Position numbers and translations under genes: made by a program | Notes under the pieces: generated by a model | The model's database searches: none | Seen by the model: only the letters and a program-made list of their open reading frames with translations | Told to the model about the DNA's origin: nothing | NCBI RefSeq assembly: GCF_000473225.1 | Contig: NZ_KI421509.1 | Coordinates: forward strand, 1,512,045 to 1,576,044 | Reading direction: 5' to 3' | Source of the DNA: Sedimentitalea nanhaiensis DSM 24252 | Lineage (GTDB): Bacteria; Pseudomonadota; Alphaproteobacteria; Rhodobacterales; Rhodobacteraceae | DNA length: 64,000 nt | Shown here: positions 7,739 through 55,233 of the stretch, one piece after another | How the letters are laid out: each line of letters begins with the position of its first letter | How positions within the stretch are numbered: the stretch's first letter is position 1

Positions 7739-7750
7739 CCAAGTGTTTCC

Positions 7751-8998
7751 TTATGCGGTTTGCGTCTGGGCCGCCTGAGCCAGAGCCATCACCTCGGGCG
7801 CGGCAACAACGTCTTGCCCGCTGGCATAGCGCTCGTGGTTCTGGGAAATCAAGGACAGGTCGTAGAGATAATTGACCATGACCCCGCTGGACCGGGCGAT
7901 GCCATTGGCCGACACATCGGCGTCCGCATGAACGGCATGGATCATGGCCCCGTTGCCCAGATGGAAACGTGCGACCGGATCATAGGGGCTGCCATCAGTG
8001 CGCCTGGCGTTAAGCAGATAGTGGGCTGCGCAGCGCTGCCTGTCTTCTGGCGTTTTCATTGGCATTCGCCCGCCGTTCTCGCCCACCCACCGGTTCAGGC
8101 CGGGAATCGGGGACAGGGTGACAAAAGTTTTCAGCTCCGGCAGTTGCCGCGACAGATCGGCCACCACCTGCTTGATCAGCGAATTGCCGAACGAAATTCC
8201 CGCCAATCCACCCTGGCAATTCGAAATCGAATAGAACACCGCCGTATCTGCCTGCCCTGCAGGCAGGGCGGCACGATCGTCCGAAAGCAACGCCTGAATA
8301 GAGCCGGGAACTCCGCGTGTCAGAGCCACTTCGACAAAGATCAGCGGCTCATTGGGCATCGCCGGATGAAAGTAGGCAAAACAGCGCCGGTCTTCGGGCT
8401 TCAAGCGGCGGCGCAGGTCCTCCCAGCTGTCGATGGCATGGACCGCCTCGTAGGCAATGATCTTCTCCAGAATGTCTGCCGGGCTTTCCCAGTTGATCGG
8501 GCGCAGCACCAGAAAACCGCGGTTGAACCAAGAGGCGAACAAGTGCCGGAAATCCAGATCGACCATCAGCAGGTCCGGTGCATCGCGAGAGAGACTTAGC
8601 AGATCCTTGCGCATCTCGACCAACTGCCCGGTTGCGCCGGGCACCTGGTTCAGCCGACGCGCCAATTCCTGGCGACGCGGCTCGGATGCGGCGAGAAAGG
8701 CGCGATACGTGGATTTGTTCGGGTCGGCCTGAAACGCGTCCAATGTGCGACGCACGGCATCCGGATCAATACCCAATCCCTGTATCGTGAATTGGAAGAA
8801 AGCCAGCTTTTCACTGTCATCCATCCCAGCATAGCGATCCAGAATATGGCGGGCCAGCGCCATGCCCGAAACCTCGCCCGAGCTGCCCAAAAGGTCGTTG
8901 GACAACTCCTTGATCGTACGCCCGGCCGGGTCTGGCTCAGACGCACCGCGATAACGACGCTCGAACACGGTGGACAGAAGATCTGCAAGAAAGCTCAT
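7751..8998 (-). CDS. matA: Malonyl-CoA decarboxylase
   Basis: Converts malonyl-CoA to acetyl-CoA and CO2, completing malonate breakdown after MatB. The protein has 415 residues: an N-terminal helical domain, then the acetyltransferase-like catalytic domain containing YFHPAMPNEPLIFVEVALTRG, FYSISNCQGGLAGISFGNSLIK, FVTLSPIPGLNRW and, near the C-terminus, DPVARFHLGNGA with the conserved catalytic His. The start ATG overlaps the dctM stop by 4 bases (ATGA), indicating translational coupling. No targeting peptide is seen, as expected for a bacterial enzyme. Confidence 0.95.
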   Translation of the reverse strand: MSFLADLLSTVFERRYRGASEPDPAGRTIKELSNDLLGSSGEVSGMALARHILDRYAGMDDSEKLAFFQFTIQGLGIDPDAVRRTLDAFQADPNKSTYRAFLAASEPRRQELARRLNQVPGATGQLVEMRKDLLSLSRDAPDLLMVDLDFRHLFASWFNRGFLVLRPINWESPADILEKIIAYEAVHAIDSWEDLRRRLKPEDRRCFAYFHPAMPNEPLIFVEVALTRGVPGSIQALLSDDRAALPAGQADTAVFYSISNCQGGLAGISFGNSLIKQVVADLSRQLPELKTFVTLSPIPGLNRWVGENGGRMPMKTPEDRQRCAAHYLLNARRTDGSPYDPVARFHLGNGAMIHAVHADADVSANGIARSSGVMVNYLYDLSLISQNHERYASGQDVVAAPEVMALAQAAQTQTA

Positions 8999-10311
8999 AT
9001 CGCAGTGCCCATCACATAGTCAGGCAGCCAGGTCGCCAGCCCGGGAAACAGGCACAACAGTACAATTGCCAGCACCATGCAGGCCACAAAAGGCAGCGAT
9101 CCGGTCAGAATTGTTTTCAACGAGATGTCCGGCGCAATACCGTTGATGACATACAGGTTCAGCCCGACAGGAGGGCTGATCAGGCCGATTTCCATGTTGA
9201 TGGTCAGCACCACCGCAAACCAGATCGGGTCGAACCCGGCGGTGGTGATGATCGGCAGCAGGATCGGTGCCGCCATCAGAATCACCGCAACCGGCGGGAG
9301 AAAGAAACCCGCGATCAGCAAAAAAACATTGACCGCCGCCATCAGAACCCAGCGGTTCACATCCAGTGTGCCGATCCATTCGGCAATGGATTGGGTGATG
9401 AACAGGCTGGACAGCATATAGGAAAACACCCCGGCGGCTGCGATGATGAACAGGATCATGACCGATTCCTTGGTGCTGTCTCGCAGCACGACCCACAAAT
9501 CGCGCGGATGCCAAAGGCGGTAGATCACCATCGCGATCACCAGACACAGCAACGCTCCCACTGCTGCGGTTTCGCTTGGTGTGGCGATGCCACCGTACAT
9601 CGCATACAACACGCCCAGAATAATCGCCAGAAACGGCAACACCCGTGGCAGGATCTCAATGCGCTGCCTCCAAGTATAGCTACCTGTGTTCAACAGGGCG
9701 ATGTTGCCTGACCGCCAGGTCGAATACAGAGACCACGCCATGAACAGCCCGACCAGAAGTGCACCCGGTAAAACGCCCGCCAGGAACAGACGCCCGATAC
9801 TGGTCTCGGTGGCAATGCCATAGACAATCATTGTGACCGACGGCGGGATCAGGATGCCAAGCGTCCCCCCGGCCGCGATGGATCCGGCGGCGACACCGTC
9901 GGGATAGCCCCGCTTGCGCATCTCGGGAATGCCCATCTTGCCGATGGCGGCACAGGTGGCGGGGCTGGACCCGGACATGGCCGCAAACAGCGCGCAAGCG
10001 CCGAGATTGGAAATCACCAGACCGCCGGGAATGCGGGTCAGCCAGCGCTCCAGCGCCTCGTACAGATCCGCCCCGGCGCGGGTCGAGGCGATGGATGCGC
10101 CCATGATAATGAACATCGGGATCGACAGCAGCGCGAAATTGTCGAGCTTGCCGAACAGGATTTCCGGCATCAGCTCGAGGCTGCGCACGCCGTCGAACAC
10201 GATCAGAAAGCCCGCCGACACGATCAGCAGGCCCAGGCCCACCGAAACCCCGGAAAACAGCACCAGTATGGTAATGACGGCGACGCAGGCCCCCAGCAGC
10301 AGTGGATCCAT
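8995..10311 (-). CDS. TRAP transporter large permease (DctM family), probably for malonate
   Basis: Integral membrane subunit of 438 residues with about 12 hydrophobic segments. Family features seen: FDGVRSLELMPEILFGKLDNFALLSIPMFIIMG, GSSPATCAAIGKMGIPEMRKRGY, and near the C-terminus MEIGLISPPVGLNLYVI. It uses the sodium gradient to move a binding-protein-delivered carboxylate. It overlaps dctQ by one base (TGATG) and matA by four. Placement between matA and the dctQ/dctP genes makes malonate (or a close analogue) the likely cargo. Confidence 0.93.
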   Translation of the reverse strand: MDPLLLGACVAVITILVLFSGVSVGLGLLIVSAGFLIVFDGVRSLELMPEILFGKLDNFALLSIPMFIIMGASIASTRAGADLYEALERWLTRIPGGLVISNLGACALFAAMSGSSPATCAAIGKMGIPEMRKRGYPDGVAAGSIAAGGTLGILIPPSVTMIVYGIATETSIGRLFLAGVLPGALLVGLFMAWSLYSTWRSGNIALLNTGSYTWRQRIEILPRVLPFLAIILGVLYAMYGGIATPSETAAVGALLCLVIAMVIYRLWHPRDLWVVLRDSTKESVMILFIIAAAGVFSYMLSSLFITQSIAEWIGTLDVNRWVLMAAVNVFLLIAGFFLPPVAVILMAAPILLPIITTAGFDPIWFAVVLTINMEIGLISPPVGLNLYVINGIAPDISLKTILTGSLPFVACMVLAIVLLCLFPGLATWLPDYVMGTAI

Positions 10312-10859
10312 CAGCTGTCCTCCAGCCCAAAGGGCGCATCGATTCCCAGGATCACCGCAACCAGATCAGCCACCAATTGCAACAGAAACAGGCCGAACCC
10401 GACCGGCAACGCCAGGTACGGAATCCAAAGCCGGACTCCCCAGACCGTGTCCGAGGTCCATCCCCGCGCCCAGGCGAAATGCCAGTAGTCGTAGCCATAC
10501 CACAGCATCAGCGCGACAATGGCGATAGACAGCGACAGGGTGAAAACCGCCAGAACCTTGCGGGCCCGTTTGGGCAGCGACAGCGGCACCAGGTCGACAT
10601 TCACATGTCCACGCAACCGCTGTACATAGGGCAACCCGATCAGGGTGGCCGAAATGACCAGATAGATGACAGCTTCGGTTTGCCAAATGGTCGAACCGTT
10701 CAGCACGAAGCGGACCACGATCATTTGGCAGGTGATCGCTACCGCCGCCACGATCATGCCCGCCGAAATCCACCCGGCAAGGGTGGACAGGCCCGCCGCG
10801 ACGCGCAGAAAGCGGTTACTTCCGACTTGCGCCGGAACGGCCGAACTGTGGCCCGCCAT
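10311..10859 (-). CDS. TRAP transporter small permease (DctQ family)
   Basis: Membrane subunit of 182 residues with four predicted transmembrane helices. It contains the DctQ-type segment WQTEAVIYLVISATLIGLPYVQRLRGHVNVDL. It pairs with the large permease encoded immediately downstream (one-base overlap). The binding-protein gene ends 57 bases upstream. Confidence 0.9.
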   Translation of the reverse strand: MAGHSSAVPAQVGSNRFLRVAAGLSTLAGWISAGMIVAAVAITCQMIVVRFVLNGSTIWQTEAVIYLVISATLIGLPYVQRLRGHVNVDLVPLSLPKRARKVLAVFTLSLSIAIVALMLWYGYDYWHFAWARGWTSDTVWGVRLWIPYLALPVGFGLFLLQLVADLVAVILGIDAPFGLEDS

Positions 10860-10916
10860 GCTATGCTCCTTATGAATTCAATTGGGGCGGCCCCGATGCG
10901 GCACCGCCCGAGCCGA

Positions 10917-11903
10917 TCACTGAACCGCCAGGGCCATGTCCAGCAGCGCCTGCCCGTCCGGGACCTGCTCGACAAAGGCCTTATAGGATGTTTCCCGCGC
11001 AACCGCGCGCCAGGCCTCGAAATCTTCTGGTGTCATCTCGGCAATCTCGACGCCTGCATTTCGGAACATCTCGACTGACGCCGCATCCTCTTTCTTGGCC
11101 TCTTGCAGATAGAATGCCTCGGCTTTTGCGGCCCCGGCCAACAAGGCGGCCTGCTGTGCATCGGTCAGCCCTTCGAACGTGGATTTGTTCATCAACAGCG
11201 GCTGATACATGAACCACAAAGCGACTTCGCCTGCGGGAGTATAGCAAGCGACCTGCTCGTAGATGCGATAGCTGACAAAGGAACTGGACGAGGTATTCGC
11301 CGCGTTCAGGACTCCGGTCTGCATCGCGTTGTAGATTTCCGAACTGGCCATCGAGGCAATCGATGCCCCGGCCCCGGCGAGCATCTGCTCAAACGCCTTG
11401 CCTGCGGCCCGTGTCTGCAAGCCGACGACATCCTCGGGTTTGGTGATGCATTTGTCCTTGCCGGCGAATCCGCCCGCCAGATAGCCATGCACCAGCACCA
11501 TGACGTCATCCTCGGCCATCTTGGCCTCGATCGCCTCCATAAAGGGCGAGTCGCTCAGACGCGCGGCGTGATCGTGGTTTTTGACCAGCCCCGGCATCAG
11601 AGTCAGATTGAACGCGGGCTGCTGCCCCCCGGCATAGGACAGCGGAAACACAGTCATGTCCAACTGGCCCCGCGATAATGGTTTGTATTGTTCACGCGGC
11701 TTGAACAGCGATTTGCTGCCAAAGATCTTGATCTCGAGATCGACGTCGGCGGCAGCCACCTCATCCGCCACAATCTGTGCCACCTGGTGACGCACATCGT
11801 TGTTGGACCATTGGTGCGACAGTCGCAATTCGGTTGCGCTCGCCACCCCTCCCAGAACCACAAGCGCCGCCGCAGCGGTCGCTGTCAGGAAATTTCTTGT
11901 CAT
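10917..11903 (-). CDS. TRAP transporter periplasmic substrate-binding protein (DctP family)
   Basis: Protein of 328 residues with an N-terminal signal peptide (MTRNFLTATAAAALVVLGG, cleavage probably after VASA, about residue 23). DctP features: LRLSHQWSNNDVRHQVAQ, a TRAAGKAFEQML segment where the family's ligand-binding Arg sits, and NAANTSSSSF. The frame is open 39 codons upstream, but ATG 11903 follows GGAGGATAAA at ideal spacing and begins the signal peptide. It is the first gene of the malonate unit, divergent from matR across a MatR-type operator. Confidence 0.93.
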   Translation of the reverse strand: MTRNFLTATAAAALVVLGGVASATELRLSHQWSNNDVRHQVAQIVADEVAAADVDLEIKIFGSKSLFKPREQYKPLSRGQLDMTVFPLSYAGGQQPAFNLTLMPGLVKNHDHAARLSDSPFMEAIEAKMAEDDVMVLVHGYLAGGFAGKDKCITKPEDVVGLQTRAAGKAFEQMLAGAGASIASMASSEIYNAMQTGVLNAANTSSSSFVSYRIYEQVACYTPAGEVALWFMYQPLLMNKSTFEGLTDAQQAALLAGAAKAEAFYLQEAKKEDAASVEMFRNAGVEIAEMTPEDFEAWRAVARETSYKAFVEQVPDGQALLDMALAVQ

Positions 11904-11955
11904 TTTATCCTCCCGTTTTCCGTCCGGTCGTTTTGAACCCCGGCGTGTGGGCGGC

Positions 11956-11984
11956 AGTGTTTGCGCTGGTGACCCCAAAGTCAA
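11956..11984 (-). promoter_or_regulatory. Candidate promoter of the TRAP-malonate operon
   Basis: Minus strand TTGACT (11979-11984), 17-base spacer, AACACT (11956-11961). The match is weak at -10. The MatR-type operator lies just upstream of this -35, a position suited to regulation of both divergent units. Confidence 0.35.
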
Positions 11985-11987
11985 GAT

Positions 11988-12001
11988 TCGTGTATACAAG
12001 A
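11988..12001 (-). promoter_or_regulatory. MatR-type operator TCTTGTATACACGA
   Basis: The 14-mer, read on the minus strand as TCTTGTATACACGA, has a palindromic TGTATACA core. It equals the MatR-binding sequence I recall from Rhizobium leguminosarum bv. trifolii. It lies between dctP and matR, which fits malonate-responsive control of both transcripts. Confidence 0.75.
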
Positions 12002-12044
12002 AGCATCGTATTGCACACAAAGCGGGCGCGCGCTAGGATTTCGC

Positions 12045-12710
12045 ATGGACAGCAGACGCGCAGACCAGATTGCCGACGCATTGGAAGAGCTGATCTTTAC
12101 CGGTCGGTTCGGCGACGGTGATCGTTTGGACGAAATTCGTCTGGCCACGGAATTCGACGTTTCCCGCACCCCGATACGCGAGGCGCTGCAGCGGCTCGTG
12201 GCCTCGGGACTGGCGGCCCAAATTCCACGGCGCGGTGTTTTTGTGCGTCAACCCGGCCCTGTCGAACTGGTCGAGATGTTCGAAACCATGGCCGAGATCG
12301 AGGCGGTCTGCGGGCGACTGGCTGCCATTCGCATCTCGGATGGAGCTCTGGAGGAACTGGACGCTGTCAACCGGCGCTCCCGGCTCTCTGTCGCCGAGAA
12401 CGATACCGATGGCTATTATCGAGAGAACGAACAGTTTCACCGCCTGATATACCAGCAATCGGGCAATGGGTTCCTGGCACGCGAAGCGCAGCGGCTGCAA
12501 CATCGCCTGAAACCCTATCGCCGGATCCAACTGCGCCTGCGCGGACGTTTGCAGCAATCCATGGCAGAACACCTGGCCATCGTGGCAGCCCTGAGATCCG
12601 GTGAGGCTGACCGCGCGGCCAGTATCCTGCGCGAGCATGTCGCCGTTCAAGGCGAAAAATTCCACCACCTCATGGCTTACCTGAAAACCCAGGCCCCATC
12701 CGGAATCTAG
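12045..12710 (+). CDS. matR: GntR/FCD-family regulator, probable MatR (malonate-responsive)
   Basis: Regulator of 221 residues. The winged-helix N-terminus contains LATEFDVSRTPIREALQRL (residues about 34-52) and the FCD ligand domain shows NEQFHRLIYQ, MAEHLAIVAALRSG and REHVAVQGEKFHH. TAGGA lies 6 bases before ATG 12045. It is transcribed away from the malonate operon across the TCTTGTATACACGA operator. By analogy to rhizobial MatR it represses in the absence of malonate. Its stop overlaps the convergent end of the 2H-phosphoesterase-like gene by four bases. Confidence 0.85.
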   Translation: MDSRRADQIADALEELIFTGRFGDGDRLDEIRLATEFDVSRTPIREALQRLVASGLAAQIPRRGVFVRQPGPVELVEMFETMAEIEAVCGRLAAIRISDGALEELDAVNRRSRLSVAENDTDGYYRENEQFHRLIYQQSGNGFLAREAQRLQHRLKPYRRIQLRLRGRLQQSMAEHLAIVAALRSGEADRAASILREHVAVQGEKFHHLMAYLKTQAPSGI

Positions 12711-13399
12711 GGCACGCTGGCGAGCGGATAGCGTTCGATTTCGTGAAAATGGCCCTGGTCGTCTTCCCCTACCAAGGACAGGCTATCCACCGGATACGGG
12801 CCAGACACCAACTCGGACAGATGCGACCGCAAGCTTGTATAAACCCGCCCTGCAGTTTCATCGTCCAGCGGCCCGGTCAAGGTGATGTGGAACCGAAAAT
12901 CCTGCATGACATGGGGATAGCCCCAACGCAGCAGGTTGCTGGCTTTGGACGGGCTCAGCCGGCCCTTGCGCCGCCGGTCCAGTTCTGCTGCACTGAGTGG
13001 TGCGCGAAACTCGTCCAGATCGACCACCACCCGCGCGGCCAAGGCGTTCAGCCCATCGACACCGCCCTTGGGAAGCAGCGCCAGAAATCGTCCCATCCGC
13101 GCAATCTCCAACCCCGACAACGTGACCGGTTCAAGCTGCGCGCAGAGCTTCTCCATCGCCTGTGAAAGCGCCGCAAACGAGGCCCTGCCCGCAAGCCGGA
13201 AAGGGGGTTTGATCGTCGCGTGCAGCCCATACCGGCGCGGGCGGGCGGTGACTTCGGCCTGTGCCGGATAAAGTTCGCCGGTCTGCGCGCTCACGTGCCC
13301 CTGCGCGATGTCCCACCCCAGCCACCGCGCACCAAATGCGCCCAGGTCGCCAGCCGGGACATGATAAATCGCGATCCTTGTGAACATGCCGCCGCCCAT
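12707..13399 (-). CDS. DUF1045 / 2H-phosphoesterase-like protein
   Basis: About 230 residues. Two H-x-T-like motifs (YGLHATIKPPF near residue 59 and FRFHITLTGPL near residue 168) mark a 2H phosphoesterase-like fold. The pattern matches DUF1045, the family annotated as a phosphonate-metabolism-associated protein, sometimes encoded in phn operons beside ribose bisphosphokinase PhnN. No other phn gene is present here. The start is set at ATG 13399, which has GGAG eight bases upstream. The ATG at 13387 has no ribosome site, and 13429 would overlap the amidase more. It overlaps the upstream amidase slightly, so the two are co-transcribed. Confidence 0.75.
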   Translation of the reverse strand: MGGGMFTRIAIYHVPAGDLGAFGARWLGWDIAQGHVSAQTGELYPAQAEVTARPRRYGLHATIKPPFRLAGRASFAALSQAMEKLCAQLEPVTLSGLEIARMGRFLALLPKGGVDGLNALAARVVVDLDEFRAPLSAAELDRRRKGRLSPSKASNLLRWGYPHVMQDFRFHITLTGPLDDETAGRVYTSLRSHLSELVSGPYPVDSLSLVGEDDQGHFHEIERYPLASVP

Positions 13400-13413
13400 A
13401 CCGGTCGCTCCGA

Positions 13414-14793
13414 TCACTCTGGATCGCAAACCGTCACCACGGGCCCTGCCGCCTCGATTGCCGCCCCGGCCGCAATCAGGATATCTTCTCGAAAGCGCCC
13501 GGCGATCAGTTGCACCCCCACCGGTTGCATTGCAACCGTCAATCCGGGCAATCCCAATGCCGGCAGCGCACGCTGAATCAACTGTGCCTCAAAGACCCGT
13601 TGGAAATCCGCCTCGGACCGTACGTCCAGCTGTTGCGGGAAAGGCAATTCTGCCGAAACCGGGCACAAGACCACCGGGTATCGGCGCAAGAACGTCTCCC
13701 ACTCGCGAATCAAGGTGGCCCGGCTTCGAGTGGCCTGCATCAGACCATCGAGATCGATGTTTCCGGCATCCAGCGCCATCTGCCGATAGACAAATTGCGA
13801 ATCCGCCTCGCCTTCGTTGCGGATCATCTGAACGGTCGAAAACTGTGTTTCCGCCATCCATAGCTGGGCATTGATTCTGGCGGCTTTGCGCAGCGGAGGC
13901 GTTGGGGTCTCTTCAACCGTCCAGCCAGCCGCGCGCAGCCGTTCTGCTGCCTCGCGCAGCGCCACCGCAACCTGGTCGGCGACCACCAAGCCCTCTGGTG
14001 CGATACACAGCGCCGCACGCCGTTCGAAATTGCCCTGCTCCAACGGCGACCGAGTGTACCACGGATCGCGCGGATCGGGGGCCGCCATCGCGAGAAGCGA
14101 CAAGCGGATATCTTCCACTGATCGGGTGATCGGGCCGGATACGGCCATCAGCTGCGCGCCGATGAACCGGTCCGCGCCGGTCGCGTTATGGGCCGGGACC
14201 CGCCCCAGGCTGGGGCGCAACCCATGCAGGCCACAGGCATAGGCAGGATAACGCACCGACCCTGCAATATCCGTGCCATGCCCCACCGCGCAGATACCAC
14301 TGGCCACAGCCGCCGCCGCCCCGCCCGAGGATCCACCCGGTGTAAGCGCCGCGTCACGCGGGTTCAGCGTCTGGCCGTGCAGATCGTTGTTGGTGAACCA
14401 GCGCAGCGAAAACGCTGGCGTGTTCGTACGCCCCACGATGATCGCCCCGGCGCGACGCAAGTTGGCCACAACAGGATTGTCTTGGTCCGCCACCAGACCC
14501 GCAAGCTGTTTCAAACCGTTTGTGGTTGCATGGCCCTTCTGATCGACGTTCACCTTGATGGTGATCGGCACACCGCACAGAGGCCCCGGCGTCTCGCCCT
14601 TGGCAATCCTCTGATCCAGATCGCGCGCCGATGCCAGCGCCTCGTCCGGAAACTCCTGTACGACGGCATTGATGCGCGGGTTGACCTGCTCCAGCCGCTG
14701 CAGGTGCGCCTGAGTGATTTCGACCACCGAAAGTTGACCACAGCGCACTTCGGCCGCGATTTCGGCGGCCGTCAGTTCCCACAGCTCTGCCAT
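13414..14793 (-). CDS. Amidase signature family protein (copy 1)
   Basis: Amide hydrolase of 459 residues with a complete Ser-cisSer-Lys triad: Lys80 in VPITIKVNVD, cis-Ser155 in TPGGSSGGAAAA and nucleophile Ser179 in GTDIAGSVR. The substrate is unknown. The family includes amidases for aryl amides, indoleacetamide and Glu-tRNA(Gln). The lack of gatB/gatC neighbours and the divergent specificity region argue against GatA. A close paralogue with identical numbering of these residues lies at 56430-57854. The gene stands at the head of a two-gene unit with the DUF1045 gene. Confidence 0.9.
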   Translation of the reverse strand: MAELWELTAAEIAAEVRCGQLSVVEITQAHLQRLEQVNPRINAVVQEFPDEALASARDLDQRIAKGETPGPLCGVPITIKVNVDQKGHATTNGLKQLAGLVADQDNPVVANLRRAGAIIVGRTNTPAFSLRWFTNNDLHGQTLNPRDAALTPGGSSGGAAAAVASGICAVGHGTDIAGSVRYPAYACGLHGLRPSLGRVPAHNATGADRFIGAQLMAVSGPITRSVEDIRLSLLAMAAPDPRDPWYTRSPLEQGNFERRAALCIAPEGLVVADQVAVALREAAERLRAAGWTVEETPTPPLRKAARINAQLWMAETQFSTVQMIRNEGEADSQFVYRQMALDAGNIDLDGLMQATRSRATLIREWETFLRRYPVVLCPVSAELPFPQQLDVRSEADFQRVFEAQLIQRALPALGLPGLTVAMQPVGVQLIAGRFREDILIAAGAAIEAAGPVVTVCDPE

Positions 14794-14939
14794 GCCATGT
14801 CCCCTCTTGTTCAGCGCAAGTTGACGCCAAGCCCCGGGCAGATCAATTGAAATAACGTCAGAATGCCATGCGGACCGCTGTTTTCCCGGCAGGGGGCCTG
14901 CGTTGCTCTTGTCATTCTGCTCCGTGCTTGCCGCCGGTC

Positions 14940-15290
14940 TTAGTTGGCGTAGCCTTCTTCAAGCATCTGGGCCGCAACGAACCGTGCATCCAACAGGAGA
15001 CGATTCAGATCGCCAAGATTCCGGCTCTCTGCATATTGCGCCAAATCCTGCAGAACATCCAAAACCCATTCATGCTCAGTCTGCGCCTCTGGAAGAGATC
15101 CGGGTCCGGCCATATCCAACAACTCGGCCAGACGCTCCGTTGCAAGGTGTTTTTCGTCTTCGCGCCCGCTCAGGTTGTCCCCGGAAGGGGACTTGATAAT
15201 CTCGGCCAGACGATACAATTCTTCCACCACCTCTTCAGCAGCCTCTTGTGCTGAAACGCTTCGCGGTGGTTTCTTTGGCATATCTGGCAT
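14940..15290 (-). CDS. Small acidic hypothetical protein
   Basis: About 116 residues, rich in Glu, Ala and Leu and predicted mostly helical (EAAEEVVEELYRLAEIIK, DEKHLATERLAELLDMAG, VLDVLQDLAQYAE). No known domain is recognised and no signal peptide or membrane segment is seen. ATG 15290 is preferred because AGGA lies eight bases upstream; the frame stays open to 15350 without a better site. It is divergent from the TPR regulator at 15415 across an AT-rich gap, so the two may be functionally linked, but nothing proves this. Confidence 0.6.
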   Translation of the reverse strand: MPDMPKKPPRSVSAQEAAEEVVEELYRLAEIIKSPSGDNLSGREDEKHLATERLAELLDMAGPGSLPEAQTEHEWVLDVLQDLAQYAESRNLGDLNRLLLDARFVAAQMLEEGYAN

Positions 15291-15414
15291 GATCTCTTTC
15301 CTGGAGTTTATCGTGGCACACTGCACCCAATCCACAGCCATTGATAGCACGTGCCCCGCATAAACGTAATTAAAGCACTGTTTTTAAAACAAATAAAGAT
15401 GAGCCAGTCAATCC

Positions 15415-17100
15415 ATGACGAACGATTCGGAAAATGAACAACAGATCTGCGACCCGACTCATCTAGCGCGGATCGAAAAGACCATGGCCGCAATAAAGGC
15501 CTCTGGCAAACTGGGTCGGGGCAAACGCCGCACCCATCTTCTGGACTATCTCGTCGGGCAGGAGTGCGCGGGCAAGGGTGCAGAGATCAAGGCCTTTGCA
15601 ATCGCCCTGGACGTGTTTGGCCGCGACGACTCGTTTGATCCGGCCAGCGACAGTATCGTGCGCTCTGAGGTCGGGCGGCTACGCGATGCGCTGAACCTTT
15701 TCTTTGCCGGAAATACAGATCCGGAACTGGTGTTGATCGACATTCCAAAGGGGACATACCGGCCCAGGATCACCCGGCCAGCGCGGCCCTGCAAACCGAC
15801 CCGCAGGCCGAGATGGGTTTGGGCCGCGGCGACCGCCGGGGTTACGGCAGCACTGGTGGCGGTCTGGACATTGGCCAGCCCACGGGCCTGGCTGTCGCAA
15901 AACGCCGAAGAACGCATGCCTTACGACGTGCTGCGCATCGCTGTCCTGCCATTTGAAAAGGCCGGCGATCACGCGAGTCTCGAAGAGATCGCATTCGGGT
16001 TGTACTCGGAGCTTTCCATGGATCTGTCGGCCTATCCCTGGATCGCGGTGGTCTCGCCGCTGAACCCCGAGGAACTCGGGGCCGACTATGTCCTCAAAAG
16101 CAGCATATTGTGGCAGGGAAGCCAACTCTTGTCGAACGCGCAGCTGGTGGCCCTGCCGGATCAGAATCTGGTCTGGAGCTGGTCGGATTCCGTCGCCATC
16201 ACGGTGTCGGATATCCAGTCAGCCCAGAATCGCATCACCAGTGGGATTGCCCAGAGCATTGGCTCCGAAAACGGCATTTCACCGGATCTGATCATTGCCC
16301 GGAACGCCCGCCATTCCGAAACGAGCCTCGAGGCCTTTATCTGTTTCATTAGCATCTACAAATATATTGACGCGCCCACCAATACCGAACACCTGAAACT
16401 GCGGGAGTGTCTGGAACGCGTTGTTTCGCAATACCCCAAATACGGCGAAGCCTGGGCCGGTCTGGGCATACTCTACATGGACGAAGTCAGGTTTGGCCGG
16501 AACCCGCGGCCCGGGCGCGATAGCTGGGCCGATGCGCGCGCCGCGATCGACAAGGGGCTGCAACTGGCCCCCCTGCGCAACCCGACACTCACAGCCGCCA
16601 TCGTGCTGGATGTGCAGGGACCGAGCCAAAACCTGTCAGAGGCCGCGAAACATGGGCGAAAACTGCTAGAATTGTTCCCGCGCCATCCAATGGCCCTTGC
16701 CTTAATCGGATCGATGCGGGCAGAATTTGTGGGTCAGTGGAACCAAGGCTTGGCCCAGATTGATCAAGCCATCGCACTGGAGCAAACGCCCCCTAGCGCG
16801 TTCTTTGTGACCCGTGCCTTTCATGCCGCCATGGGATCGGACGATGCTGCGGCTGTTGCGGCCACCCTGCCGCTGACAACGCCGACATCCAAGCCTGAAT
16901 TGCTGTTGCGCTACCTTGCCGCCTCGCGGGTCGGCCAGTTAAATGAGATGCAACGCTTGCGAACCCTTCTCGCGCGCCAGGGTCTTCCCACTCAGGATAG
17001 CCTCGTCGAATTCGTTAAAAACCGCCGATATCATCGCGATCTGGAACAGGCCCTGCTATCGCAATTGCAACGCGCCTTTCAGCGGGAATCCAAAGGATAA
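15415..17100 (+). CDS. Membrane-anchored TPR signalling protein with N-terminal regulator-like domain
   Basis: 561 residues. The N-terminus (about 15-118) resembles the soluble domain found before adenylate cyclase/TolB-like modules: LGRGKRRTHLLDYLVGQECAGKG, ALDVFGRDDSFDPASDSIVRSEVGRLRDAL, IDIPKGTYRPRI. One transmembrane helix follows (about 133-153). Then comes a TolB-like part (VLRIAVLPFEKAGDHAS) with ADYVLKSSILWQG, and C-terminal TPR-like repeats (residues about 300-520). No cyclase or kinase catalytic domain is present, so it probably senses or scaffolds rather than catalyses. It stands alone, divergent from a small hypothetical gene. The region before it is AT-rich. Confidence 0.75.
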   Translation: MTNDSENEQQICDPTHLARIEKTMAAIKASGKLGRGKRRTHLLDYLVGQECAGKGAEIKAFAIALDVFGRDDSFDPASDSIVRSEVGRLRDALNLFFAGNTDPELVLIDIPKGTYRPRITRPARPCKPTRRPRWVWAAATAGVTAALVAVWTLASPRAWLSQNAEERMPYDVLRIAVLPFEKAGDHASLEEIAFGLYSELSMDLSAYPWIAVVSPLNPEELGADYVLKSSILWQGSQLLSNAQLVALPDQNLVWSWSDSVAITVSDIQSAQNRITSGIAQSIGSENGISPDLIIARNARHSETSLEAFICFISIYKYIDAPTNTEHLKLRECLERVVSQYPKYGEAWAGLGILYMDEVRFGRNPRPGRDSWADARAAIDKGLQLAPLRNPTLTAAIVLDVQGPSQNLSEAAKHGRKLLELFPRHPMALALIGSMRAEFVGQWNQGLAQIDQAIALEQTPPSAFFVTRAFHAAMGSDDAAAVAATLPLTTPTSKPELLLRYLAASRVGQLNEMQRLRTLLARQGLPTQDSLVEFVKNRRYHRDLEQALLSQLQRAFQRESKG

Positions 17101-17131
17101 GCCTGGCGAGGCATACCCGGCCTGCCGCAGA

Positions 17132-18355
17132 TCAGATCACCGCTTTCTCCACAACGGGCTCGCCGCGCTCGATCCGCCCGTATCCCAAGGGTGACAGATC
17201 GAGGCTGCGAAATTCGCCATAGGTCAGGTATTCTGCCGTGCCGCGCCCCATCGCCGGCGCTTGCTGCAGCCCATGCCCTGAAAAGCCGTTGAGAAAAACA
17301 AAGTTCTCGATCTGCGAATGCGGACCGACAATCGCATTCTGATCCAACGTGTTATAGGCATAGTGCCCGACCCATTCGGTCACCACCCTGATCGCCTCGA
17401 ATTGCGGGATACGAGTGGCGATTGTGGGCCAGACCTGATCCTGCCACAGCCCGTGATCCATGGTAAAATCGTCGAAATCCACAGCCGGATCAGGATCGGC
17501 ATGCCCTCCGGCCATATAGGTGGTCGGCCCATCCTGACGCATGTGGACACCCGATGGGTCAATGGTCAACGGCAATTCCCGGTCCAGCGGGCGTTCCGCC
17601 GAAAAGATCCATGTGAACCGCTTGCGCGGCTCGACCGGTATCTCGATCCCGGCCATCGCCGCTGTCCGCGTCGCGCGTGGCCCCGAGGCGTTGACAACCT
17701 GACCGCAGGCAATTTTTTCGCCCGATTTCAGCGTCACCGTTTCAACCCGGTCGCCAGCGGCATTGCGGCTCATCTCCACGACTTCGTTGCTGATGTATTC
17801 GACGCCCCGCTCGCGTGCGCTGCGCCGCAACCAGTCAAACACCGTGCCGCCATCCCAATACCCTTCGTCAATGCGGTTGATACTGCCCAGAACAATGTCG
17901 TCCAGCCGGTAGAATGGATAGTCGCGCGCGATCTCGTCCGGCGTCAGAAGCTGTGTCGCGACACCCTCGGCCAATTGCACCTTTTGGTTCTGGCGCAGAA
18001 CTTCGGCAAAGGCAGGAGAATCAGCCAGATAGAGATAGCCGTAGCTCTGGATCGACAGTTCGGGCACCCGCGTGTCGCCCCCCATATACGCGCGGAAGTT
18101 CTTGATGAAATCGGCGGCAAACTGGGAAATCCGCACGTTCAAGGCGCTGCTGAACTGCTGCCGAATGCACGAGTTGGTATGCGCCGTCGAACACATCCCA
18201 TAAGAGGGATCACGCTCGATGACGAGGACCGAGCCGTCAAAATCCGGGTTTTCGGTCAGAAACCACGCTGTCGAAGACCCCAGCATCGCACCGCCAACGA
18301 TGACAACATCATAGGTGGCGCGGGCGGGGGTCTGGTGCATGCTCGCTCGGCTCAT
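17132..18355 (-). CDS. FAD-dependent oxidoreductase, DAO/sarcosine oxidase-like
   Basis: 407 residues. The dinucleotide-binding motif is VVIVGGAMLGSSTAWFL (residues about 17-33), followed by VLVIERDPSYG. Near the C-terminus NFVFLNGFSGHGLQQAPAMG is typical of sarcosine/dimethylglycine oxidase-type flavoproteins that oxidise N-methyl or secondary amines. The start ATG overlaps the stop of the hydantoinase B gene (TGATG), so it is translationally coupled. It is the last gene of the ABC-hydantoinase operon and ends 31 bases from the convergent TPR gene. The likely role is to oxidise the N-substituted amino acid released by ring opening. No second sarcosine oxidase subunit is present. Confidence 0.85.
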   Translation of the reverse strand: MSRASMHQTPARATYDVVIVGGAMLGSSTAWFLTENPDFDGSVLVIERDPSYGMCSTAHTNSCIRQQFSSALNVRISQFAADFIKNFRAYMGGDTRVPELSIQSYGYLYLADSPAFAEVLRQNQKVQLAEGVATQLLTPDEIARDYPFYRLDDIVLGSINRIDEGYWDGGTVFDWLRRSARERGVEYISNEVVEMSRNAAGDRVETVTLKSGEKIACGQVVNASGPRATRTAAMAGIEIPVEPRKRFTWIFSAERPLDRELPLTIDPSGVHMRQDGPTTYMAGGHADPDPAVDFDDFTMDHGLWQDQVWPTIATRIPQFEAIRVVTEWVGHYAYNTLDQNAIVGPHSQIENFVFLNGFSGHGLQQAPAMGRGTAEYLTYGEFRSLDLSPLGYGRIERGEPVVEKAVI

Positions 18356-20061
18356 CAGAAAATATCTCCCAGTTTGGCTCGTTGCATCACGTCCTGAATT
18401 TCGGCCTCGTCCAGCCCGTAATCCGCTCGCGCCGAGGCGATGCCGATATACCCCAGGGCCAGATCCCGTTTGATCTGTTCGGGCCTGCGGTCCATGGGAG
18501 CGCCATACCCGGCACCGCCCGGAAAGCCCATCATGACGCGCCGCCCATGGGGCACAAACTGCTTGCCCTTGCCTTTCATCGCGGTGCCATCGTCCTGGGC
18601 AATGGTGGTGGGCGCACCTGACCGGCCCCCGCGCCGACCGCGTGCAGGATGATCGACACGGTCGAACATGGCCTGCAGGTCGAATTCGTGGCCCTCGCGG
18701 GCTCCAACTTCCATGTATTGCCCCAACCCGCCTCGGCATGCCCCCGCGCCACCACTGTCCGGGCGCAACTCCTTGCGCCAGACGATCACCGGGCCGACCT
18801 GCTCTGTGGCTTCGACCGGCATGGTCATGACACCGGATGGAAAGGCGGTGGCATTCATCCCGTCCAACTTGGGCCGTGCGCCCGAACCGCCCGAATTGAA
18901 GGTCAAGACTTCGGCGCGCACCGCGTCCTCTGGTGCGGGGGCATCGGTGCGGGGCCGCAAAGACAGTTGGAAATTGCACAGACAACCAGCCCCTTCGGCG
19001 GGCACCGTGTCGGGCAACAGCTTGTCCAGCGCATCATAGATCGTGTCGGGGATCATGTGACCGATCACGTGACGCAGCGCCACCGGCGCGGGATGCACCG
19101 CGTTGACGATACTGCTTTCCGGTGCGACCACACGGAAAGGATCGAGGGACGCAGCGTTGTTGGGAATTTCCGGAGCAATCGCGCATTTCAGCGCATAACA
19201 GGCATAGGCCTTGGTGTAGACCAGCGGCACGTTGATGCCCTTTTTATCCACCCCCGAAGTGCCGGCAAAATCGCACAGGACATGGTCGCCGGCAAAACTC
19301 AGATGCACCTTCAGATCCACCGGGTGGCTATAGCCATCGATCTGCATCGCGCCCGATGCGCCAGCACGGGGCAGCGCCCGAATACGCTCCAGTGTCGCCT
19401 CGCGCGAATTGGTCAGGATAAAGTCGGCGATACCATCCAGATCGGCCAGATCGAATTCGGTCATCATGTCGATCAGGCGGCGGTGGCCGATGTCATTGCA
19501 AGTGACCAGCGCATAGATGTCACCGACCAACTGGTCCGGTTCTCGCACATTGCCCCGGATGATCCGGATCAGCGTCTGATCGACCTCGCCACGCGCTGCC
19601 AGTTTCATGATCGGGATGTACAGCCCCTCTTCGTAGACCGAGTTCGCATCCGCCCCGAACCCGCGGCCGCCAATGTCGACGATATGCGCGGTGCAGGCAA
19701 AGAAACCGACAAGCCGCCCTTGATGAAACGAGGGGGTGACAACCGTGATGTCATGCAGGTGGCCTGTGCCCTCCCACGGATCATTGGTGATATAGACATC
19801 GCCCTCGTGGATATTGTCGCACCCAATGCGACGAATGAAATGAGGGACCGCGTCGGCCATGGCATTCACATGCCCCGGCGTGCCGGTGACCGCCTGCGCC
19901 AGCATCCGACCTTGCCCGTCATACACACCGGCCGACAGATCGCCCGCCTCGCGCACGCTGGTGGAAAAGGCGGTGCGCACCAAGGCCTGCGCCTGTTCCT
20001 CGACCACTGAAATCAGGCGATTCCACATGACCTGATAGGCGACACGGGAAAGCTCAGCCAT
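18355..20061 (-). CDS. Hydantoinase B / N-methylhydantoinase-type beta subunit
   Basis: 568 residues matching the HyuB family throughout: VEEQAQALVRTAFSTSVREAGDLSAGVYD, GTPGHVNAMADAV, NDPWEGTGHLHDITVVTP, ADANSVYEEGLYIP, and the C-terminal GGAGYGAPMDRRPEQI. HyuB pairs with the ATP-binding HyuA subunit to open cyclic amides (hydantoins, N-methylhydantoin, 5-oxoproline) or to carboxylate ketones in related enzymes. It overlaps hyuA by eight bases upstream and the FAD oxidoreductase by one base downstream. The substrate cannot be read from sequence; the oxidase neighbour suggests an N-methylated product. Confidence 0.92.
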   Translation of the reverse strand: MAELSRVAYQVMWNRLISVVEEQAQALVRTAFSTSVREAGDLSAGVYDGQGRMLAQAVTGTPGHVNAMADAVPHFIRRIGCDNIHEGDVYITNDPWEGTGHLHDITVVTPSFHQGRLVGFFACTAHIVDIGGRGFGADANSVYEEGLYIPIMKLAARGEVDQTLIRIIRGNVREPDQLVGDIYALVTCNDIGHRRLIDMMTEFDLADLDGIADFILTNSREATLERIRALPRAGASGAMQIDGYSHPVDLKVHLSFAGDHVLCDFAGTSGVDKKGINVPLVYTKAYACYALKCAIAPEIPNNAASLDPFRVVAPESSIVNAVHPAPVALRHVIGHMIPDTIYDALDKLLPDTVPAEGAGCLCNFQLSLRPRTDAPAPEDAVRAEVLTFNSGGSGARPKLDGMNATAFPSGVMTMPVEATEQVGPVIVWRKELRPDSGGAGACRGGLGQYMEVGAREGHEFDLQAMFDRVDHPARGRRGGRSGAPTTIAQDDGTAMKGKGKQFVPHGRRVMMGFPGGAGYGAPMDRRPEQIKRDLALGYIGIASARADYGLDEAEIQDVMQRAKLGDIF

Positions 20062-50710: not shown

Positions 50711-50857
50711 GGGTATCCCTGTTTCTTTGTCAAAACACTGGCGGGGACCAATGAGATTTGCAAGCGAAGGACTGAAACACCGTTCGCCATTTTCGATGTT
50801 GCCCCCGCGTCACGCGGTAATTTAATGTTAAACCAAATTTCAGGAGGATTCCCAAGC

Positions 50858-53131
50858 ATGTCCGACAACCAAAGCCTGCGCCAGGCCGCTCTGTTTTATC
50901 ACGAGCACCCCAAACCCGGAAAACTGGAAATCCGCCCCACCAAGCCGATGGCCAACGGTCGCGATCTGGCGCGCGCCTATTCCCCGGGTGTCGCCGAAGC
51001 CTGTCTGGAAATTCAGGCCGACCCGGCCAATGCCGCACGCTATACCACCACCGCCAATCTGGTCGGTGTGGTCAGCAATGGCACAGCCGTCCTGGGACTG
51101 GGCAATATCGGCGCGCAGGCCAGCAAACCGGTGATGGAGGGCAAGGCGGTACTGTTCAAGAAATTCGCCAACATCGACTGTTTCGACATCGAAGTGGACG
51201 AATCCGACCCGGAAAAACTGGCCGAGATCGTCTGCGCGCTGGGACCGACCTTTGGCGCGATCAATCTCGAGGACATCAAGGCGCCGGATTGCTTTATCGT
51301 GGAACAGATCTGTCGCGAGCGGATGAACATACCGGTGTTTCACGACGACCAGCACGGCACCGCCATCGTAGTCGGCGCGGCAGCAAAGAACGCCGTGCTT
51401 GTCGCCAACAAGAAATTCGAAGATATCAAGATCGTCAGCACCGGCGGCGGCGCTGCGGGAATCGCCTGCCTGAACATGCTGGTCAAGATGGGCGTGAAAC
51501 GCGAGAATATCTGGCTCTGCGATGTTCATGGCCTCGTCTATAAGGGGCGGACCGAGGACATGAACCCTCAAAAGGCGATCTTTGCGCAGGACACAGAGTT
51601 GCGCAATCTGGACGAGGTGATCGACGGTGCCGACCTGTTCCTGGGCCTAAGCGGCGCCAATGTTCTCAAGCCAGAAATGGTGCGGAAAATGGGCATCCGC
51701 CCGATTATCTTCGCCCTGGCCAACCCGAACCCCGAGATCATGCCCGACGACGCCCGGGCGGTCGCCCCCGATGCGATCATCGCAACCGGGCGCAGCGATT
51801 TTCCGAACCAGGTCAACAATGTCCTGTGCTTTCCCTTCATCTTTCGCGGTGCCCTGGACGTTGGTGCAACCGAGATCAACGACGAGATGCAACTGGCCTG
51901 TATCGAAGGGATTGCCGAACTGGCCCGCGCCACCACCAGTGCCGAGGCGGCGGCAGCCTATCGCGGCGAAGAGATGACCTTTGGGGCCGACTACCTGATT
52001 CCCAAACCGTTTGACCCACGCCTTGTGGCGGTGGTCTCGGCGGCGGTGGCCAAGGCGGCGATGGACAGCGGCGTCGCGACGCGGCCGATCGACGATTTGG
52101 AAGCCTATAAGGAGCGACTGAAACAGAGCGTGTTCAAATCCGCCCTGCTGATGCGCCCGGTGTTTGAAGCCGCGCGCGCCGCCAGCCGCCGTATCATTTT
52201 CGCCGAGGGAGAGGACGAACGCGTCCTGCGCGCAGCACAGGCGATTCTGGAAGAGACCACCGAAACACCCATTATCATCGGTCGCCCAGAGGTGATCGAG
52301 CAGCGCTGTGAGCGCATGGGCCTGGACATCCGGCCACTGCGTGATTTTGAATTGGTCAATCCAGAGAACGACCCGCGCTACTACGACTATTGGAATACTT
52401 ATCATACACTGATGCAGCGGCGCGGCGTCACTCCGGATATCGCCAAGGCGATCATGCGCACCAACACCACGGCCATTGCCGCCGTCGCCGTTCAGCGCGG
52501 CGAGGCCGACAGCATGATCTGCGGCACGTTCGGGGAATACCGCTGGCATTTGAACTATGTAAGCCAGATCCTCGGCACATCCGAGATCAACCCGCATGGA
52601 GCCTTGTCGCTCATGATCCTGGAAGACGGCCCGCTGTTCATTGCCGACACCCACGTCCACCAGCGCCCCGAAGCCCGTGAATTGGCCGAGATCGTCATCG
52701 GAGCGGCGCGTCACGTGCGCCGCTTTGGGATCGAGCCCAAGATCGCCCTGTGTGCCCAGTCGCAATTCGGCAATCAGGCCGAAGGGTCGGGCAGGCGCCT
52801 GCGCGCAGCACTTGCAATTCTGGACAGCGAGCCGCGCGACTTTGTCTATGAGGGCGAGATGAATATCGACACCGCCCTTGATCCGGACCTGCGGGCACGT
52901 ATTTTTCCCAATTCCCGTCTGGAGGGCACGGCCAATACCCTGATCTTTGCCCATGCGGACGCGGCCAGCGGCGTGCGCAACATCCTCAAGATGAAAGCCG
53001 GAGGGCTGGAGGTCGGACCGATCCTGATGGGCATGGGCAACAACGCTCATATCGTGTCGCCCTCGATTACCGCACGTGGGCTGCTGAACATGGCCGCGAT
53101 TGCCGGGACACCGGTGGCGCATTACGGCTGA
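50858..53131 (+). CDS. maeB: NADP-type malic enzyme with C-terminal phosphotransacetylase-like domain
   Basis: 757 residues. Oxidative decarboxylation of malate to pyruvate. The malic domain (about 1-420) shows [27 protein letters not shown] and [18 protein letters not shown] 50858 has GGAGG ten bases upstream. The C-terminal half (about 430-757) is phosphotransacetylase-like ([45 protein letters not shown]) and is usually an acetyl-CoA-sensing regulatory domain. This is the MaeB architecture common in alphaproteobacteria. A possible hairpin follows the stop. Confidence 0.96.
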
Positions 53132-53143
53132 ACCAAAAGAGCG

Positions 53144-53176
53144 ACGCCGGGCTTCCAGAGTTTGCAAACCCGGCGT
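53144..53176 (+). terminator. Inverted repeat ACGCCGGG/CCCGGCGT after maeB
   Basis: Perfect 8-bp arms (53144-53151 and 53169-53176) with a 17-base loop that contains a TTTGCAAA. A weak T run follows, so termination efficiency is uncertain. Confidence 0.45.
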
Positions 53177-53257
53177 TTGGCATAAAGTATCCGCATATTG
53201 GGCTTTGGTTTGCAAAATTTGCAGCGGCATATCTGCGGAAACTGCAAATTTTTTGCG
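53161..53257. promoter_or_regulatory. Cluster of TTTGCAAA-type sites before prpE
   Basis: TTTGCAAA occurs at 53161-53168 and 53209-53216. The second is followed after one base by TTTGCAG (53218-53224), giving the palindrome TGCAAA-A-TTTGCA. A further CTGCAAA at 53242-53248 is followed after three bases by TTTGCG. I recall that the propionyl-CoA metabolism regulator PccR of Rhodobacter sphaeroides binds TTTGCAAA repeats with a 4-base spacer. The exact spacing is not met here, so binding is only suggested. The sites lie 80-180 bases before the prpE start. Confidence 0.5.
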
Positions 53258-53337
53258 TCGTTGTGCCACTGATACCGGTAACTGTCTTGCCCGAGGCCGG
53301 ATGCCACTCTTAAATCGTCAGCACCCTTGGAGGAGAG

Positions 53338-55233
53338 ATGTCGATGAGCTATGCAGAGGTTTATGAGAGCTGGAAGTCGGACCCGGAAGGCTTTTGGATG
53401 GAGGCCGCTAAAAGCATTGACTGGATCGAACCGCCAAGCCGGGCACTGAACGCAGACAACGCGCCCCTTTATACCTGGTTCGACGATGGCATGGTGAACA
53501 CCTGCTGGAACGCCGTCGACCGCCATGTCGAAGCCGGACGCGGCGAACAGACCGCCATCATTTATGACAGCCCGATCACGCACAGCAAGCGCGAAATCTC
53601 GTATGTGGAGTTGCGCAACCGCGTCGCCAACCTGGCCGGTGCGTTGCGTGCCAAAGGCGTGGAAAAGGGCGACCGGGTCATCATCTATATGCCCATGGTG
53701 CCCGAAGCGCTTGAGGCGATGCTGGCCTGCGCACGTCTGGGGGCGATCCATTCCGTGGTGTTCGGTGGATTTGCCGCCAACGAGCTGGCGGTGCGCATCG
53801 ACGATTGCAAACCCAAGGCGATCATCGCCGCCTCCTGCGGATTGGAACCGGGTCGCGTGGTGCATTATAAACCACTGCTGGACGGAGCTATCGATCAAGC
53901 CAAACACAAGCCCGACTTCTGCGTGATCTTTCAACGCGAGCAGGAAGTTGCCCAATTGATCGAGGGCCGTGACGTGAACTGGCACGGTTTCCAATACGGC
54001 GTCGAACCGGCCGACTGTGTACCGGTCCAAGGCGACCACCCGGCCTATATTCTGTACACCTCGGGCACAACGGGTGCACCCAAGGGGGTGATCCGCCATA
54101 CTGCCGGGCATCTGGTCGCTCTGAACTGGACGATGAAGAACATATACAACGTCGACCCTGGCGATGTATTCTGGGCCGCCTCGGATGTGGGCTGGGTCGT
54201 GGGCCACAGCTACATCTGCTACGCCCCCCTGATTCACGGAAACACCACAGTCGTATTCGAGGGCAAGCCCGTTGGCACCCCCGACGCGGGAACGTTCTGG
54301 CGGGTGATTTCGGAACACAAGGTCAAGTCGTTCTTTACGGCACCTACAGCCTTTCGCGCCGTGAAACGCGAAGATCCAAAGGGCGAGTTCATCCGGAAAT
54401 ACGATCTGAGTGGATTGAATGCGATCTATCTGGCAGGCGAGCGTGCCGATCCGGACACGATCGAATGGACCCGCAAGATGACCGGAAAACCGGTGTATGA
54501 TCATTGGTGGCAGACCGAAACCGGCTATACCATCGCAGGCAATCCCGTGGGCATCGAACCGCTGCCGGTCAAGGTTGGGTCTCCCACCGTTGCGATGCCC
54601 GGCTATGACGTTCAGATCCTGGACGAGGCGGGTCACGAAGTTGCCCCCGGCGAATTGGGCGCCATCGCAATCAAGCTGCCGCTGCCGCCGGGCACTCTGC
54701 CAAATCTGTGGAATGCCGAAGACCGTTTCCGCAAATCCTATCTCGATCACTTCCCGGGCTATTACGAAACCGGCGATGCCGGGATGAAGGACGAGGACGG
54801 GTATCTGTGGATCATGGCGCGCACCGATGATGTGATCAACGTTGCCGGCCATCGTCTTTCCACCGGTGCGATGGAAGAGGTTCTGGCCAACCATCCCGAC
54901 GTGGCTGAATGTGCCGTGATCGGCGTGACCGATCAGCTGAAAGGACAGATGCCGGTGGGTTTTTTGTGCCTGAATACCGGAGCCGGGCGTGACAACGCCG
55001 AAGTGGTCGGCGAGGTCGTCAAGATGGTGCGCGACAGGATCGGTCCCGTAGCAGCCTTTAAACATGCAGTTGTGGTCGATCGCCTGCCCAAGACCCGGTC
55101 GGGCAAGATCCTGCGCGCCACCATGGTCAAGATCGCGGATGCAGAAGACTTTAAAATGCCCGCGACAATCGACGACCCCGCGATCCTGGATGAAATCCGC
55201 GAGGCGCTGCAAACCATCGGATACGCCAGATAA
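53338..55233 (+). CDS. prpE: Propionyl-CoA synthetase
   Basis: 631 residues, AMP-forming acyl-CoA synthetase that activates propionate. N-terminal YAEVYESWKSDPEGFWMEAAKSIDW and the motif YTSGTTGAPKGVIRHTAGHLVALNWTM are those of PrpE rather than acetyl-CoA synthetase (which usually carries YTSGSTGKPKG). Also seen are the A5 motif DHWWQTETGY, DDVINVAGHRLS and the catalytic Lys in KTRSGKILR. ATG 53338 is preceded by GGAGG; ATG 53344 is an alternative. TTTGCAAA-type sites lie upstream, consistent with propionyl-CoA control. Confidence 0.94.
   Translation: MSMSYAEVYESWKSDPEGFWMEAAKSIDWIEPPSRALNADNAPLYTWFDDGMVNTCWNAVDRHVEAGRGEQTAIIYDSPITHSKREISYVELRNRVANLAGALRAKGVEKGDRVIIYMPMVPEALEAMLACARLGAIHSVVFGGFAANELAVRIDDCKPKAIIAASCGLEPGRVVHYKPLLDGAIDQAKHKPDFCVIFQREQEVAQLIEGRDVNWHGFQYGVEPADCVPVQGDHPAYILYTSGTTGAPKGVIRHTAGHLVALNWTMKNIYNVDPGDVFWAASDVGWVVGHSYICYAPLIHGNTTVVFEGKPVGTPDAGTFWRVISEHKVKSFFTAPTAFRAVKREDPKGEFIRKYDLSGLNAIYLAGERADPDTIEWTRKMTGKPVYDHWWQTETGYTIAGNPVGIEPLPVKVGSPTVAMPGYDVQILDEAGHEVAPGELGAIAIKLPLPPGTLPNLWNAEDRFRKSYLDHFPGYYETGDAGMKDEDGYLWIMARTDDVINVAGHRLSTGAMEEVLANHPDVAECAVIGVTDQLKGQMPVGFLCLNTGAGRDNAEVVGEVVKMVRDRIGPVAAFKHAVVVDRLPKTRSGKILRATMVKIADAEDFKMPATIDDPAILDEIREALQTIGYAR

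Follow-up and report, generated by a model that had tools for sequence, protein, structure and literature searches.

An array of TTTGCAAA boxes before prpE of Sedimentitalea nanhaiensis as a probable PccR operator

The window analyzed here, a stretch of 64,000 nucleotides of Sedimentitalea nanhaiensis DSM 24252, contains a 206-base gap (53132-53337) before prpE, and in this gap lie two exact TTTGCAAA boxes and three partial boxes, which are named A to E in Table 1. The word TGCAAA-A-TTTGCA occupies 53211-53223. The two best NCBIfam models for prpE are both propionate--CoA ligase, at 720 and 690 bits, neither of which reaches its cut-off (955 and 827, respectively). ATG 53338, listed as the prpE start, stands just 2 bases from the ribosome-binding site, and ATG 53344 is a better candidate for initiation of translation.

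Table 1. Features of the maeB-prpE region, in window coordinates, and the candidate regulator gene
Feature	Position	Strand	Remarks
maeB, NADP-dependent malic enzyme, gene upstream of prpE	50825..53131	+	995 bits; cut-off of 1178 not reached
Possible maeB terminator hairpin, includes box A	53141..53181	+	fold -18.6 kcal/mol, z -2.2
Box A	53161..53168		exact TTTGCAAA; start 48 bases above box B start (48-50 in scored relatives)
Box B	53209..53216		exact TTTGCAAA
Box C	53218..53225		TTTGCAGC; start 9 bases after box B start (9 or 10 in scored relatives)
Box D	53241..53248		ACTGCAAA; start 32 bases after box B start (31-33 in scored relatives)
Box E	53252..53257		TTTGCG; start 11 bases after box D start
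Probable -35, TTGCCC, within CTTGCC word	53287..53292	+	word starts 45 bases after box D start
Probable -10, TTAAAT	53310..53315	+	17 bases after -35; predicted
Ribosome-binding site of prpE, GGAGGAG	53329..53335	+	by eye
prpE, propionate--CoA ligase, 631 aa	53338..55233	+	NCBIfam
PccR candidate	L104:2449-3867	minus	HTH, IrrE-like and ScfRs domains

Two exact copies of TTTGCAAA occur in the 64-kb window, both in the prpE gap, where 0.96 are expected for the window as a whole; since at least two were reached in 26 of 100 window shuffles, the window total is unremarkable. What is unusual is the clustering in the prpE gap: at least two exact copies appeared in 1 of 2,000 dinucleotide shuffles of 53132-53337, and the observed five sites (up to two mismatches, central GC) were reached in 13 of 2,000; box E is not one of these five, and TTGGCATA at 53177, which is one of them, is probably noise. 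The first-pass annotation had described at least four full or partial units before prpE, TGCAAA-A-TTTGCA among them, and this description holds, with clustering beyond that of shuffled sequence.

A scan of named genomes supplied prpE loci for comparison (n = 80, the best 80 of more), and 65 of Rhodobacteraceae type together with the window made up a set of 66 promoters, each represented by 330 upstream bases. These hold 65 exact copies of TTTGCAAA, against a mean of 1.3 in shuffled sets; at least one exact copy is present in 33 of the 66 and none in the other 33, and a pair of exact copies at a distance of 48 or 49 bases is found in 24 promoters and in none of 100 shuffled sets. Arrays were labeled by eye, giving 33 with the window included and one partial case (L079), and distances were scored in 31 of the 33, leaving out L012 and L049 (scores over 5). 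In the 31 scored arrays the box distances are near-constant, with A to B at 48-50, B to C at 9-10 and B to D at 31-33 bases, although these results are partly set by the ranges searched (A to B, 47-50; B to C, 9-10; B to D, 31-34; D to CTTG, 40-50). The spacer between boxes B and C is one base in the window and two bases in 27 of the 31. At the position of box E, TTTGC with at most one mismatch is present in 20 of the 31, window included, and 17 of them have an additional box (TTTGCA with no more than one mismatch) that begins 8 bases above box A; the window is without it. Compensating distances (A to B of 48 with B to D of 33; A to B of 49 with B to D of 32) were considered and found not significant (permutation, 0.41).

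Below the boxes, 28 of the 31 scored arrays have a CTTG word, shortened to TTG in three cases, whose start lies 44-46 bases beyond that of box D (45 in 21 of them), and in the alignment of the prpE arrays it is followed by a TA-type -10; these two elements probably constitute the prpE promoter. A simple sigma-70 consensus scan reported no promoter at the proposed prpE -35 and -10. In the arrays of L012, L016, L024, L029 and L049, the interval searched beyond box D (40-50 bases) yielded neither CTTG nor TTG; in the L029 array, box D is exact and CTTG stands nearer than that range.

On sequence comparison the array belongs to prpE, since it is found before this gene in eight Rhodobacteraceae-type loci (L011, L014, L019, L020, L021, L024, L052 and L059) that have no same-strand maeB ending in the 600 bases upstream. 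Control of maeB was considered as well and is disfavored: the array sits after maeB and tracks prpE elsewhere. Among relatives in which prpE has no array, a search of up to 2.9 kb upstream (34 loci) found no displaced copy except in L012, whose array lies further upstream of prpE. On a PrpE tree of 69 rows the array label needs 11 changes, 6 of them forced by well-supported branches; repeated loss of the prpE array is likely, and gain is also possible.

Whole-genome searches were run for 50 loci, 32 with the array and 18 chosen without it; leaving out L006 gave 49 relatives. The S. nanhaiensis genome has 63 copies of TTTGCAAA compared with 24 of a backward control word, and the composite TTTGCAAA-N0-4-TTTGCA occurs once, at the prpE array, with none for the control. 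In the relatives, TTTGCAAA-N1-2-TTTGCA is found at 27 places spread over 24 of the 49 genomes; 23 of these places are before prpE. The backward control gives 2. TTTGCA-N2-TTTGCA has 72 places in the 50 genomes, against 4 for the backward control and with none in S. nanhaiensis; among the places viewed (50 loci and 4 tight-pair loci), some are at prpE, pccB and pccR and others are mixed. The notion that every exact TTTGCAAA marks the regulon was rejected: among the matches listed (50 of 63), most of those fetched lie inside longest-ORF calls, made by a rough caller that wrongly placed the pccB site inside an ORF. Some exact copies, again among the matches listed, do lie between ORFs (for example, L087, L088, L092, L100 and L122). 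In one Roseobacter genome (L233, position 1501), a tight TTTGCAAA pair stands about 200 bases before a gene judged by eye to be sdhC-like. Near 1501 in L246, L254 and L260, TTTGCATTTTTGCA is found at or next to a LysR-like gene; in L246 and L260 its other side has an mmsA-like gene (by eye). It may be the site of another regulator.

Among 13 promoters of S. nanhaiensis, exact TTTGCAAA is found before prpE (2), pccB (1, 81 bases before the ATG) and pccR (2, lying 16 and 46 bases upstream of the presumed ATG). No exact copy was found in those before pccA, mcm, acuI, the epimerase gene, ccr, ecm or maeB, where the ccr and ecm stretches were measured from the profile match rather than the start codon and may be partly coding, nor before the second ScfR gene, second pccB or second prpE. 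One-mismatch sites do precede mcm (one), maeB, the second ScfR gene and the second pccB. The pccA and mcm genes lie downstream of pccB in one cluster. With respect to a PccR regulon, boxes like those of prpE are present before pccB, and no exact box stands before mcm, acuI or the epimerase gene; boxes at these three genes are not a defining feature, mcm being in the pcc cluster. The search for the same repeats before propionate genes that the first-pass annotation had suggested thus found an exact copy before pccB and none before mcm, pccA, acuI, the epimerase gene, ccr and ecm. Absence of the repeats in relatives, which that annotation took to count against its proposal, applies to about half of the prpE promoters and does not apply to pccB.

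PccB was found in all 49 relatives. Of 50 pccB promoters, counting that of S. nanhaiensis, 47 have a box 60-125 bases ahead of the gene on which they could be aligned, and three could not be placed in this way. In the resulting consensus, two further boxes stand 32 and 40 bases above the anchor box, and a CTTT word below it. Of the 47 relatives with PccR, 44 have an exact TTTGCAAA before pccB, and all 47 have at least one site there with no more than one mismatch; in L032 the pccB boxes are away from the usual place and none is exact. In the two relatives without PccR, Loktanella atrilutea (L056) and Wenxinia saemankumensis (L063), there is no exact TTTGCAAA before pccB (0 of 2), with a single-mismatch site 41 bases before pccB in L063; the co-loss of PccR and exact pccB boxes is an observation from two genomes.

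The regulator itself is one of three S. nanhaiensis proteins with ScfRs-domain matches (PF09856). Its gene adjoins an MFS transporter gene, pccB, pccA and mcm, so that in this genome a regulator with HTH, IrrE-like and ScfRs domains lies beside the pccB cluster. The name PccR is a putative one, given by neighborhood: the nearest NCBIfam model differs, being RamB at 438 bits, short of the cut-off of 700, in a library that names no PccR model. The nearest model for pccB is likewise a different one, a methylmalonyl-CoA decarboxylase subunit, below cut-off. The protein aligns with M. tuberculosis PrpR of known structure over residues 75-470, CxxCxxxxC motif included. An ortholog with 63-86% identity is present in 47 of the 49 relatives; in 40 of these 47 it shares a contig with pccB, at a distance of no more than 7 kb, and in the other 7 the two are on different contigs. 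PccR was found in all 31 array-bearing genomes searched and also in 16 of the 18 array-less genomes. PccR may thus be needed for the prpE array and yet not imply one; in the 16 genomes that keep it without an array, PccR would not be acting via an array at prpE. Preservation of the array in many relatives, the boxes before pccB and pccR, and the missing exact pccB box in both genomes without PccR all support the link to a PccR/ScfR-type propionyl-CoA regulon that the first-pass annotation had proposed.

A second propionate gene set is present in the same genome (L128, G000:C4:4164500-4184400, positions 7646-19340), with an ScfR paralog, pccB, pccA, mcm, maeB and prpE in a row, the genes being named by position and sequence, with a family check for the regulator and mcm only. 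It has no exact TTTGCAAA, and the gap between its regulator gene and pccB holds a different repeat, TTTGCATATTGCATA. In both S. nanhaiensis sets maeB directly precedes prpE (window, 50825-55233; L128, 15084-19340), and among the 80 prpE loci (the best 80 of more) maeB lies within 600 bases before prpE in 37. The adjacency suggests that malic enzyme and propionate use are functionally connected.

In Rhodobacter (Cereibacter) sphaeroides the PccR operator at pccB is, as Carter and Alber reportedly described in 2015, a direct repeat, TTTGCAAA-X4-TTTGCAAA. S. nanhaiensis resembles this system in having a PccR-like gene beside the pccB cluster and TTTGCAAA boxes before pccB, but the target here is prpE, and TTTGCAAA-X4-TTTGCAAA is absent at the prpE array. 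The four-base spacer was not found in the S. nanhaiensis genome, where, for spacers of 0-4 bases, the only one seen is of one base, at prpE, and the pccB consensus from relatives shows no X4 spacer either. PccR controls pccB in C. sphaeroides, according to the accessible part of PMC12632250. From the discrepancy in spacing it had been supposed that the spacing rule may be looser than thought. This supposition loses ground on two counts: the prpE spacing, though unlike that direct repeat, is near-constant across relatives, and the tight one-base pair equals the M. tuberculosis PrpR footprint. As described in the accessible parts of PMC3420887 and PMC6765138, the PrpR footprint at prpD/prpR covers two palindromes, TTTGCAAA and TTTGCgAA, with a single base between them, and 53209-53225 is the same kind of tight pair with a one-base gap; moreover, PrpR is a relative of PccR. 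The accessible text of PMC6765138 presents PrpR as tetrameric, with CoA and an iron-sulfur cluster as ligands. The differences are that those accessible parts describe one pair there, whereas two to three pairs stand in a near-constant array here, and that methylcitrate genes are the targets there and methylmalonyl-CoA genes here. Paracoccus denitrificans RamB, an ScfR-family activator, acts on glyoxylate-cycle genes from two near-identical upstream boxes, both of which are needed, like the paired boxes here, but with an 18-bp spacer, one pair and another pathway (PMC10370305). A literature search, conducted largely without subscription journals and in part on partial texts, turned up, among the papers listed, none reporting a TTTGCAAA operator before prpE.

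The prpE gap shows features expected of an ScfR-type operator: TTTGCAAA and near palindromes, paired boxes with fixed spacing (scored in 31 of 33 arrays, inside search ranges chosen beforehand), and a position before a short-chain acyl-CoA gene, prpE, whose models score below cut-offs. We consider it probable that the array is a prpE operator read by PccR, and the best reading would place prpE in the PccR regulon, activated by propionyl-CoA-type signals. PccR would bind the TTTGCAAA boxes as a multimer, with paired boxes meeting the several helix-turn-helix domains of a tetramer; its acyl-CoA/iron-sulfur sensor domain would report propionyl-CoA or a related thioester; and effector-bound PccR would recruit polymerase and switch on the promoter that lies 45 bases below box D, such that PrpE, the CoA ligase, would be raised together with propionyl-CoA carboxylase (PccB). 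We infer from sequence that PccR binds, that it activates and does not repress, which effector it senses and where the promoter elements lie. The distance of about 32 bases between boxes B and D is close to three helical turns, and the pccB boxes show a similar 32-base step, a periodicity that would be compatible with a tetramer occupying a single DNA face.

The reading most closely allied to this one is that PccR binds but represses prpE, or does both depending on effector. Binding is common to it and to the preferred explanation, so that the two are not exclusive, and as regards repression we consider it unlikely. The two exact boxes 16 and 46 bases before the presumed pccR ATG would suit autorepression, but all prpE boxes lie above the probable -35, which is the usual place of an activator, and the related RamB of Paracoccus activates from paired upstream boxes (PMC10370305). 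Less probable still is that another ScfR-type protein reads the array, the candidates being the short ScfR-like protein and the paralog encoded next to the second pcc-mcm-maeB-prpE operon. Three PF09856 proteins are available in the genome, the third, shorter type is widespread in relatives (among the matches listed), and the accessible part of PMC3420887 describes overlapping targets for the ScfR relatives PrpR and RamB. However, a second near-full-length ScfR (36-39% identity) is present in at least 6 of 31 array-bearing genomes, or at least 7 if the broken-up G027 match is counted; the paralog's own operon has one-mismatch sites only; and matches to the short type persist in both genomes devoid of PccR and of exact pccB boxes.

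It is very improbable, in our estimate, that the repeats are part of a maeB transcription terminator or chance sequence of an A+T-rich gap. Box A does lie within the predicted hairpin after maeB, for which an equally good fold arose in 7 of 200 shuffles, and a terminator scan, which did not report the hairpin at 53141-53181, found instead a hairpin with a T-run at 53234-53246 (0.4 expected in shuffles) that covers part of box D. Against this, the array tracks prpE where maeB is not close upstream, shuffles fail to reproduce it, and the tight pair stands mostly before prpE (23 of 27 places).

If the array is indeed a prpE operator read by PccR, prpE probably joins an existing control circuit of propionyl-CoA use and does not constitute a new kind of system. 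A ligase that admits propionate, and in roseobacters acrylate, would then join the promoters carrying PccR-type boxes. PrpE in roseobacters also makes acryloyl-CoA from DMSP-derived acrylate, according to the accessible part of PMC5651017, and PccR control of prpE would therefore cover the acrylate route too. A more far-reaching proposal, which we can put forward only tentatively, is that Rhodobacteraceae prpE would be a direct and ancestral member of the PccR regulon, with a rigid operator of up to six boxes holding two ScfR tetramers in phase with the promoter, and that entry of DMSP carbon would thereby come under feed-forward acyl-CoA sensing. The distances of the conserved, proposed prpE operator are open to box-by-box testing, and the comparison suggests a spacing of ScfR sites that varies from promoter to promoter and is near-constant within one, which should aid prediction of their regulons.
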